Positions 3,615 through 43,545 of a DNA stretch of 64,000 nucleotides are shown piece by piece; positions within the stretch are counted from its first letter, which is position 1; each line of letters starts with the position of its first letter. A program made the position numbers and the translations under genes. Source of the stretch: Pelosinus fermentans DSM 17108 (GTDB taxonomy: Bacteria > Bacillota > Negativicutes > DSM-13327); the NCBI RefSeq assembly GCF_000271485.2, contig NZ_AKVN02000001.1, forward strand, positions 810,001-874,000, in the 5' to 3' direction. The notes under the pieces were generated by a model that ran no database searches, had not been told where the DNA came from, and saw only the letters and a program-made list of their open reading frames with translations.

Positions 3615-3708
3615 ATGAACCGCGAAGACGCGAAGAACACGAAGAGTATGAGATATCCCTTCACTCCTTCGTGTTCTTCGCATTTCTTCGTGCCTTCGCG
3701 ATTCAAAA
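3615..3708. repeat. CGAAG-type modular palindromic repeat, copy 1
   Basis: Left arm TGAACCGCGAAGACGCGAAG, and a right arm ending in CTTCGCGATTCAAAA. The arms are largely complementary, so the transcript can fold into a long imperfect hairpin. It is one of about 15 related copies in this window, all between genes. Confidence 0.85.
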
Positions 3709-5511: not shown

Positions 5512-5655
5512 CGTTGAACCGCGAAGATGCGAAGAAATACCAAGAACACGAAGAAACATTATGGTCACTTCGTGATCTTTGCATACTTCGCGTCTTCGCG
5601 GTTCAAAACGTTTTTTTTCTCTCCGTACTCTCTACGCCTTTGCGGTTCAAAAAGC
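5512..5655. repeat. CGAAG-type repeat, copy 2, with extra right-arm remnant
   Basis: Left arm GTTGAACCGCGAAGATGCGAAG and a right arm with CTTCGCGTCTTCGCGGTTCA. A degenerate second right arm (CGCCTTTGCGGTTCAAAA) follows at about 5635-5652. With the terminator at 5386 it fills most of the 394-nt gap before the permease gene. Confidence 0.85.
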
Positions 5656-8140: not shown

Positions 8141-8240
8141 GATTAAACGCGAAGGTGCGAAGCTGCTAACGCAGATACAAAGAACACGAAGGGATACTTC
8201 TCCTTTTATTCTCATAATCTTCGCGTCTTCGCGGTTCAAA
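8141..8240. repeat. CGAAG-type repeat, copy 3
   Basis: Left arm ATTAAACGCGAAGGTGCGAAG, a small inner hairpin around GCTGCTAACGCAG, and right arm CTTCGCGTCTTCGCGGTTCA. It separates the permease gene from its ATPase gene. Confidence 0.85.
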
Positions 8241-12337: not shown

Positions 12338-12366
12338 TAAAATAAGAAGAAACAATGCAAAAACAA

Positions 12367-12489
12367 TTAACCGCGAAGATGCGAAGATACGAAGGCGCTA
12401 TCGCGTACACGAAGAATCTTATCCAAATTTTCTTATTGTGCCATCCTTCGTATACCTTCATATCCTTCGTGTCTTCGCGTTAAAACGTT
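12367..12489. repeat. CGAAG-type repeat, copy 5
   Basis: Left arm TTAACCGCGAAGATGCGAAG, inner segment GGCGCTATCGCGTACACGAAG, and right arm with CCTTCGTGTCTTCGCGTTAAAA. It lies between lpxI and lpxB. Confidence 0.85.
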
Positions 12490-12520
12490 TTTTTGATCTA
12501 CTATTTGTTGGAGGATTTGT

Positions 12521-17942: not shown

Positions 17943-18050
17943 GTTGAACCGCGAAGGTCACGAAGTTATATGAAGAACACGAAGACGAGTATTATAACCA
18001 CTTCGCGTTCTTCACTTCCCGGTCGGCAGCTTCGCATCTTCGCGTTTTAA
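17943..18050. repeat. CGAAG-type repeat, copy 6
   Basis: GTTGAACCGCGAAGGTCACGAAG at the left and CTTCGCATCTTCGCGTTTTAAA at the right, between lpxK and kdsB. Confidence 0.85.
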
Positions 18051-18852: not shown

Positions 18853-18935
18853 GCTGAACCGCGAAGGCACGAAGAAATGCAAAGGACACGAAGAGGTATT
18901 ATATATCCCGTTTCTTCGCATCTTCGCGTTTCAAT
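18853..18935. repeat. CGAAG-type repeat, copy 7
   Basis: Left arm CTGAACCGCGAAGGCACGAAG and right arm TTCTTCGCATCTTCGCGTTTCA; one of the shorter intact copies, between kdsB and kdsA. Confidence 0.85.
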
Positions 18936-19855: not shown

Positions 19856-19937
19856 TGAACCACAAAGACACAATGCCGCTATCGCAGCACACAAAGGGAA
19901 GTAACCCTTAGTGTCCTTTGTGCCTTTGTGGTTCACT
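19856..19937. repeat. CACAAAG-type repeat, copy 8
   Basis: Same architecture as the CGAAG copies but with CGCGAAG replaced by CACAAAG: TGAACCACAAAGACACAATG at the left, inner CCGCTATCGCAG hairpin, and CCTTTGTGCCTTTGTGGTTC at the right. It shows that the frame is kept while the repeated heptamer changes. Confidence 0.85.
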
Positions 19938-21488: not shown

Positions 21489-21660
21489 AAAGCCCGGAAA
21501 CGCGAAGTTGCGAAGAGATATGAAGAACACGAAGTCGTGTTTATGAGATCCCTTTGCGTGCTTCGTTTCCGCGTAAGCGGCTTTGCGTCTTCGCGGTTCA
21601 AAATGCGTTATTCTTTACCCTATCTTTTCTCGGTGTTCTCTGCGTCTCTGTGGTTCGATT
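21489..21660. repeat. CGAAG-type repeat, copy 9, with CTCTGCGTCTC remnant
   Basis: Left arm CCGGAAACGCGAAGTTGCGAAG, inner CCGCGTAAGCGG, right arm TTGCGTCTTCGCGGTTCAAA, then a second short right arm TCTCTGCGTCTCTGTGGTTC at about 21636-21657. Confidence 0.85.
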
Positions 21661-23966: not shown

Positions 23967-24126
23967 GATCTAAACGCGAAGGGCGCGAAGAAATGCAAAG
24001 AACACGAAGGATTATTATGGATAATGACTATTTCATATTCTGTCCGGTCTTCGAATCTTCGCGCCTTCGCGGTTCAAAATGTTTTATCTTTATTCTATCT
24101 TTTCTCTGCGTCTCTGCGGTTCAAAC
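23967..24126. repeat. CGAAG-type repeat, copy 10, with CTCTGCGTCTCTGCGG remnant
   Basis: Left arm TCTAAACGCGAAGGGCGCGAAG and right arm CTTCGCGCCTTCGCGGTTCA, followed by TATCTTTTCTCTGCGTCTCT and GCGGTTCAAA. The last piece recurs at 21617, 39865 and 52170. Confidence 0.85.
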
Positions 24127-26005: not shown

Positions 26006-26132
26006 TGAACGAACCGCAGAGACGCAGAGAACACAGACCCAATTCCTCCGCGCCTTCTGTACCTCTGTGGTTCAAAACCCCTTCGTGCTCTTCACCCTTC
26101 TTGGCACTTCGCATCTTCGCGTTTCAGAACAG
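26006..26132. repeat. CGCAGAG-type repeat, copy 11
   Basis: Left arm GAACCGCAGAGACGCAGAGA uses the CAGAG heptamer. The element then carries both an ACCTCTGTGGTTCAAAA right arm and a second CGAAG-type right arm (CTTCGCATCTTCGCGTTTCA), so it is a chimera of two subtypes. Confidence 0.8.
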
Positions 26133-38587: not shown

Positions 38588-38715
38588 TCTTGAACCACAA
38601 AGACGCAATACTGCTATTCGCAGTACACAAGGGAACGTAAACCCTTTGTGACCTTTGCGCCTTTGTGGTTCAAATTTTTTAATGATTTCTCAGCGCGCTC
38701 TGCATCTCTGCGGTT
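38588..38715. repeat. CACAAAG-type repeat, copy 13, with CTCTGCATCTC remnant
   Basis: TTGAACCACAAAGACGCAAT, inner CTGCTATTCGCAG hairpin, CCTTTGCGCCTTTGTGGTTC, and a further CTCTGCATCTCTGCGGTTAA right arm at about 38699-38718. Confidence 0.85.
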
Positions 38716-42466: not shown

Positions 42467-42481
42467 AAAAGATAAGATTTT

Positions 42482-42546
42482 ATGAACCACAAAGGCACAA
42501 TGCCGCATAAAACCCTTAGTGTCCTTTGCGCCTTTGTGGTTCAAAT
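42482..42546. repeat. CACAAAG-type repeat, copy 14 (short)
   Basis: ATGAACCACAAAGGCACAAT, centre GCCGCATAAAAC, then CCTTTGCGCCTTTGTGGTTC. It is the shortest full copy (about 65 nt). Confidence 0.85.
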
Positions 42547-42576
42547 TCTTTTGATATTTTTAAAAGCAGGTGCAAT

Positions 42577-43048: not shown

Positions 43049-43100
43049 CGAACCGCGAAGACGCAAAACCGCTAGCGCGGTACACGAAGGGAGCATAAGA
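43049..43100. repeat. Left arm of split CGAAG-type repeat
   Basis: CGAACCGCGAAGACGCAAAA, then CCGCTAGCGCGGTACACGAA and GGGAGCATAAG. This is the standard left arm with its inner CCGCTAGCGCGG hairpin, ending at the start of the GxxExxY gene. The matching right arm lies after that gene. Confidence 0.85.
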
Positions 43101-43101
43101 T

Positions 43102-43497
43102 ATGGATTGGCGTGGGAGTTTAGATGATGATATAGAAAGGCTAGCCAGTCAAATGATTGGCTCAGCTATTGAAGTTCATCGAATTCTAGGACCTGGCTAT
43201 ATTGAACATGTCTATGAAGAAGCTTTAGCAAGGGAATTACATTTAAGAACGATCCCTTTTGAGCGGCAAAAAATAATTGATATTAGATATAAGGGCTTTC
43301 CAATAGGTGAGGGTAGGTTGGATTTATTAATTGATCAAAGAATAATAGTAGAATTAAAATCTGTAGAAAATCTATTGCCTATCCATAATGTTCAAGTGCA
43401 TTCTTATCTAAAAGCTACAGGACTACAATTAGGCTTACTCATCAACTTCAATGTGCCTCTTTTACGTGATGGCATTAAACGAATAATCTTAACATAA
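43102..43497 (+). CDS. GxxExxY protein (PD-(D/E)xK nuclease-like)
   Basis: 131 residues. G-P-G-Y-I-E-H-V-Y-E-E-A-L gives the GxxExxY motif (about residue 31-38). G-R-L-D-L-L-I followed by I-V-E-L-K-S is a PD-(D/E)xK core (Asp, then Glu-x-Lys). Q-V-H-S-Y-L-K-A-T-G and the C-terminal G-L-L-I-N-F are also typical of the family. No function is established for the family. The gene is flanked exactly by the two arms of the intergenic repeat found all over this region, while its neighbours are LPS core genes. It is therefore likely a passenger or driver of that repeat rather than an LPS gene. Confidence 0.88.
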   Translation: MDWRGSLDDDIERLASQMIGSAIEVHRILGPGYIEHVYEEALARELHLRTIPFERQKIIDIRYKGFPIGEGRLDLLIDQRIIVELKSVENLLPIHNVQVHSYLKATGLQLGLLINFNVPLLRDGIKRIILT

Positions 43498-43545
43498 AAA
43501 CCTTCGTGTATCTTCGTACCTTCGCATCTTCGCGGTTCAAATCTT
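43498..43545. repeat. Right arm of split CGAAG-type repeat
   Basis: AAAAACCTTCGTGTATCTTC, then GTACCTTCGCATCTTCGCGG and TTCAAATC: the right arm matching the left arm at 43049, starting directly after the GxxExxY stop codon. Confidence 0.85.

Follow-up and report, generated by a model that had tools for sequence, protein, structure and literature searches.

GxxExxY genes framed by inverted arms of tandem 7-mers, and a possible RAYT/REPIN-like repeat system in Pelosinus and beyond

In the 64,000-nt stretch of Pelosinus fermentans DSM 17108 DNA analysed here (the window), a gene of the GxxExxY family lies between two inverted arms made of 7-bp units, and the same layout frames most GxxExxY genes sampled from many phyla. 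We consider it probable, with room left for serious doubt, that gene and arms form a compact element in which the protein, a sequence-specific nuclease, is the partner of the arms, in the manner of RAYT/REPIN systems but with an unrelated nuclease. Support for this reading comes from sequence statistics, namely the association of gene and arms, the grammar of the units, their co-variation with the protein, a rule linking residue 15 to base 5 that held in held-out loci, the switching of types at orthologous sites and a polarity linked to replication. Direct binding, cleavage, action on single strands and nuclease-driven spread are inferred. Movement is likewise an inference, drawn from type switching, polarity and the RAYT/REPIN analogy.

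The first-pass annotation of the window had placed the GxxExxY gene between the two arms of one repeat, and this placement was confirmed (Table 1). The left arm has the layout GAACCGCGAAGACGC-(nested stem ACCGCTAGCGCGGT)-ACACGAAGG and is separated by 11 nt from the ATG; its end, GAAGGGAG, is also the likely ribosome-binding site. The right arm, CCTTCGTGTATCTTCGTACCTTCGCATCTTCGCGGTTC, begins 3 nt past the TAA stop codon (43495-43497). The inverted arms, of approximately 40 nt each, pair around the ORF in the predicted fold, which also contains the nested stem of the left arm, and when both flanks were shuffled the score was equalled in only 1 of 20,000 shuffles. Together, the gene and its arms make up a compact unit of about 490 bp. 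According to a whole-genome search, this is the only GxxExxY gene of the 5.03-Mb genome. Its neighbours, named by reading the ORFs only, are rfaE2-like and heptosyltransferase genes.

Table 1. Position of the GxxExxY gene, its arms and the gene-less hairpins in the window
Feature	Position	Strand	Remarks
Left arm	43050..43090	+	Units CGCGAAG (43054-43060), CGCAAAA (degenerate), CACGAAG (43083-43089)
Small nested stem ACCGC-TAGC-GCGGT within left arm	43068..43081	+	Predicted fold
GxxExxY gene, 131 aa, PD-(D/E)XK nuclease, PDDEXK_3 family	43102..43497	+	TIGR04256 2.6e-40, PF13366 3.3e-40
Right arm	43501..43538	-	Minus-strand reading GAACCGCGAAGATGCGAAGGTACGAAGATACACGAAGG: units CGCGAAG, TGCGAAG, TACGAAG, CACGAAG
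Gene-less hairpin, type CGCGAAG	3617..3704	.	
Gene-less hairpin, type CGCGAAG	5516..5604	.	
Gene-less hairpin, type CGCGAAG	8144..8237	.	
Gene-less hairpin, type CGCGAAG	12359..12492	.	
Gene-less hairpin, type CGCGAAG	17946..18048	.	
Gene-less hairpin, type CGCGAAG	18856..18932	.	
Gene-less hairpin, type CACAAAG, one arm with nested stem	19857..19934	.	
Gene-less hairpin, type CGCGAAG	21497..21599	.	
Gene-less hairpin, type CGCGAAG	23971..24075	.	
Gene-less hairpin, type CRCAGAG	26011..26073	.	
Gene-less hairpin, type CACAAAG, one arm with nested stem	38592..38671	.	
Gene-less hairpin, type CACAAAG	42484..42542	.	Intergenic gap adjoining that of the GxxExxY gene

With one mismatch allowed, the pattern GAACCGCGAAG matched the window 18 times, versus 0.32 matches expected, and the repeat units belong to three related types, CRCGAAG, CRCAAAG and CRCAGAG. 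All the other copies had been described as having arms a few dozen bases apart; this is the case except for those that are single degenerate arms. The gene-less Pelosinus hairpins are located between genes. One arm of many Pelosinus hairpins contains a nested stem, CCGC-NNNN-GCGG (43068-43081, 19857-19934 and 38592-38671 in the window); as judged by reading the inserts, these stems vary in sequence and apparently retain their pairing. For the palindrome at 42474-42550, a known RNA family was considered and rejected, with only sub-threshold miRNA matches obtained.

The window protein matches TIGR04256/PF13366 with 137 bits (cut-offs 35 and 22) and no other profile, its GxxExxY motif being G32-E35-Y38. 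Putative catalytic residues E35, D74, E84, K86, Q98 and Y102 are conserved in at least 90% of 84 sequences. Based on an AlphaFold2 model (pLDDT 95), the nearest fold is that of Cas4 SSO0001 (4ic1, Z 9.3), and the leading Foldseek matches include LHK-Exo, lambda exonuclease and MGME1; no convincing sequence relative with a solved structure was found. GxxExxY proteins conserve the D, E, K, Q and Y residues of these enzymes and differ from them in their length of about 130 aa, in having their own repeat arms and, at this locus, in the absence of cas genes among the immediate neighbours. The candidate specificity residues of the window protein are A15, R27 and S101. In the model, the first helix carries residues 15 and 27, and residue 101 lies between the conserved Q98 and Y102; any contact of these residues with DNA is inferred. 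Three other affiliations were discarded. A known defence system found no support in PADLOC, whose best matches, Cas4b among them, reached only E 0.05; the RAYT or IS200/IS605 HUH families were ruled out by the profiles, of which only PDDEXK_3 and GxxExxY match, and by the fold; and a phage origin was dropped, with no GxxExxY match in phages and eight plasmid records.

That GxxExxY genes and repeats are linked had been inferred from this single locus. A flank-versus-flank inverted-repeat test, applied to 80 named and further fetched GxxExxY loci of many phyla, supported this link across phyla: a score of at least 30 was reached by 60 of 72 named loci versus 9 of the 421 other ORFs that these stretches contain. 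In a total of 195 GxxExxY loci, 78% had arms, versus 4.4% when flanks were exchanged between loci and 0.2% of shuffles; about 20% of loci lacked detectable arms. Because the detection settings (scores, unit grammar, spacing of 8-11) were picked while viewing the first loci, the cleaner figures are those of the 95 loci fetched afterwards, where 71 scored at least 30 and 58 had three units in each arm (3+3). Conservation is limited to the layout and the code described below, while arm sequence varies by locus; a literal search for the GAACCGCGAAG arms around other GxxExxY genes, as initially suggested, would therefore fail and was dropped once the arms proved variable. The possibility that the two arms are independent solo insertions is unlikely, since the arm types agree here, in every relative at this site and at most loci elsewhere. 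Among the few control matches, one ORF (L093:3327-3812) resembles a RAYT on reading and has REP-like inverted arms; as a known system, it serves as a positive control.

Among the genomes sampled, 101 of 198 in Bacteroidota and 55 of 119 in Planctomycetota had GxxExxY matches. Up to 15 matches in one genome were observed in the Planctomycetota G942 and G887. Many other genomes carry several gene-bearing copies of differing unit types side by side, and the copies within one genome are diverged paralogues, mostly with different unit types.

An arm consists of at least three tandem 7-mers, NNNNRAK, at a spacing of 8-11, and often opens with AACC. The 3+3 arrangement was found in 64% of loci versus 0.7% of shuffles, and unit identity is 87% within an arm, 90% between the arms of a locus and 61% between loci. 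Unit distance is correlated with protein identity (Mantel r -0.44, 0 of 2000 permutations). Column scans of a rule-finding set of 119 loci showed that Thr at residue 15 is accompanied by G at base 5 of the unit in 40 of 41 cases, and Ala by A in 23 of 25. The held-out set comprised 58 unit-bearing loci fetched later, by searching around genomes of Pseudomonadota, Bacteroidota and Planctomycetota; it includes some paralogues or relatives of genomes from the earlier set, but no protein of that set. Here the rule was obeyed in 27 of 27 cases (Thr with G, 18/18; Ala with A, 9/9); Ser15 does not predict base 5. In the same loci, base 7 was T with Asn27 (9/9), G with Thr or Ser at residue 101 (42/42), and T or A with Asn101 (16/16).

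To control for phylogeny, base 5 was simulated along a protein tree whose construction omitted the five candidate columns. The association of residue 15 with base 5 was not reached in any of 400 simulations (z 18), and the runner-up column was the neighbouring residue 16. Additionally, 21 of 23 close pairs were consistent with the rule and none was reversed, while 15 of 19 Thr/Ala pairs within single genomes obeyed it. For base 7, the association with residues 26, 27 and 122 exceeded that in nearly all simulations; residue 101, which is strong in the raw counts, fell outside the top columns under this control. With only about 11 changes of base 7 on the tree, the assignment of residues to it is clade-level. 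The first-pass annotation had offered, as a second form of its idea, a protein that recognises the repeat family, and the co-variation in held-out loci favours this form. Recognition of cognate units by GxxExxY is thus well supported from sequence alone, in the absence of binding data. A gene framed by arms whose unit is partly predictable from single residues points to an undescribed system of a repeat and its own enzyme, REPIN/RAYT-like in outline.

A DNA-binding protein would also co-vary with its own operators. The arms could accordingly be operator or mRNA-control sites for the autoregulation of GxxExxY, with the gene-less copies as further regulated or silenced sites and with specific binding but no movement. 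The overlap of the left arm with the likely ribosome-binding site and the intergenic location of the gene-less hairpins are in agreement with this explanation, which we nevertheless regard as unlikely: a matching inverted arm is also found downstream of the gene, and the putative catalytic residues are conserved.

Autoregulation also fits poorly with what is found at orthologous sites, where the hairpin type switches. The GxxExxY gene occupies one orthologous site in four Pelosinus species, with arms of three types; Ala15 occurs there with CGCGAAG or CACAAAG, and Thr15 with CACAGAG, in line with the residue 15/base 5 rule. At this site, a short hairpin without the gene stands in a fifth species (G009), three relatives have neither gene nor hairpin, and a relative of another genus (L006, G001:C87:99815-99994) has a 5′-truncated GxxExxY with the right arm only. 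Many other intergenic Pelosinus sites, occupied by gene-less hairpins, show type switching too. Hundreds of gene-less arms of related types exist alongside the one gene, and Pelosinus genomes without a detected gene, some of them incomplete assemblies, still carry arms, such as G004 with 57, 18 and 171 arms of the three types. The genome-wide arm type agrees only loosely with the current type of the gene.

These comparisons also bear on whether GxxExxY is a true transposase of an ordinary transposable element, moving gene and arms together, with the gene-less hairpins being MITEs formed by internal deletion. As with MITEs and their parent elements, short inverted-repeat elements coexist with longer gene-bearing ones that have common ends; the inverted ends directly border a single ORF, one genome can hold as many as 15 matches, and the G009 hairpin stands where relatives carry the gene. 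Nevertheless, the gene is fixed at one site across Pelosinus, and copies within a genome are diverged and mostly of different unit types, unlike those of recent transposition bursts; unit sequence varies while the layout stays. Target duplications and clean empty sites were sought among the Pelosinus species, as the annotation had proposed, and none was resolved, the junctions being too diverged. We consider an ordinary transposon improbable. The annotation's first form, in which gene-less copies are deletion derivatives of the full element, finds only partial support, from the G009 site, and general descent from gene-bearing copies was not shown.

Solo hairpins are polar, with a unit spacing of 9 in one arm and 8 in the other, or with one arm interrupted. 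In the Pelosinus genome G003, whose replichores were confirmed by GC skew, 89 of 99 type-B arms follow the replication fork (Fisher p 2.6e-16), and 12 of 13 arms are still fork-oriented where the neighbouring genes are convergent or divergent; few sites with genes opposite to replication entered this analysis. CACAAAG-type arms on the G003 chromosome reverse their orientation between replichores. Polarity that follows the fork favours a one-strand process during replication over a process tied to transcription, and its persistence where flanking genes are not co-directional is a further argument against operator sites.

In gene-carrying Bacteroidota, no gene-less hairpins were found in the 387 kb sampled, and the comparison of gene presence with hairpins (0 vs 0 with 3+3 units, 0 vs 1 with 2+2 units) has counts too low to be informative. 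Another family of Bacteroidota genes, the TIGR02436 four-helix-bundle genes (L404-L433), reached a score of at least 30 for flanking inverted arms in 15 of 30 loci. Their arms are short repeated words with a grammar other than that of GxxExxY, for example the CAGTAAT repeats in L433. Since TIGR02436 shares the gene-between-arms layout, arms of this kind may arise without the involvement of a nuclease; the shared layout may reflect a second system of the same sort or one process underlying the two families. Host processes, i.e., hairpin template switching, which is known to even out quasi-palindromes, or ectopic conversion, would then make or homogenise the arms, and GxxExxY and the four-helix-bundle protein would be passengers, or binders with another role. 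A layout common to two unrelated families and the hairpins of genomes without a detected gene could be explained in this way. We find this very unlikely, given that host processes predict neither the correspondence between particular residues and particular bases across phyla nor the framing of most GxxExxY genes, versus so few other ORFs.

Under the preferred reading, that of an element with its own nuclease partner, the protein would read the bases of the unit, with residue 15 setting base 5 and a residue group including 26-27, 101 and 122 linked to base 7. The nuclease, with its predicted Cas4/lambda-exonuclease-like fold, would act on the arm hairpin when the DNA is single-stranded in replication, and this action may help cognate hairpin copies to spread, to replace other types or to persist, by analogy with the role proposed for RAYT nucleases on REPINs. 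Counting against this reading are the unresolved target duplications, the arms in Pelosinus genomes without a detected gene, the loose agreement between genome-wide and current gene type, the absence of gene-less hairpins from the sampled Bacteroidota, the loci without detectable arms, the within-genome pairs that depart from the rule, the lack of prediction by Ser15, the few changes of base 7 and the layout shared with TIGR02436.

The intervening sequences of 23S rRNA likewise carry a small gene, of the four-helix-bundle (S23) kind, within the loop of a long stem; the GxxExxY element is intergenic and not in rRNA. RAYT (TnpA-REP)/REPIN systems resemble the GxxExxY element in that a small nuclease gene lies between inverted repeats belonging to a hairpin family found throughout the genome, a feature seen in Pelosinus and not in the sampled Bacteroidota, where solo hairpins were absent; gene-less repeats that outlast gene loss are another shared trait. 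Repeats and protein co-vary in both, and types switch at orthologous genes, where 'orthoswitches' of REP/RAYT denote orthologous genes with different repeat classes (PMC3686654). Each RAYT nuclease within a genome is distinct (PMC3116915), as are the GxxExxY copies. The differences are that the RAYT enzymes are IS200/IS605-related tyrosine nucleases of the HUH type, whereas GxxExxY has a PD-(D/E)XK, Cas4-like fold; that REPs consist of a GTAG/GTGG-type 5′ tetranucleotide and a palindrome, whereas GxxExxY arms are tandem 7-mers without that tetranucleotide; and that GxxExxY can have many gene copies per genome. Our literature search found no paper tying the GxxExxY nuclease family to any repeat: the Pfam short name gave no matches, of the papers containing the name 'GxxExxY', the one examined was unrelated to repeats, and the matches for arm sequences were, among the matches listed, all unrelated by title.

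A broader proposal can be put forward only tentatively, and we hold it to be possible rather than probable: bacteria and archaea could harbour a large undescribed class of hairpin elements that obey a readable code from amino acid to base and are recognised and processed by GxxExxY nucleases, with four-helix-bundle proteins at the head of a parallel second class and both together providing a general, HUH-independent repeat maintenance. The residue 15/base 5 rule is directly testable by one amino-acid exchange and one base change. If true, the link between GxxExxY and its repeats would give a common 'unknown' nuclease family a substrate, account for intergenic hairpins of a widespread class and bring a second type of enzyme into RAYT/REPIN-like systems.
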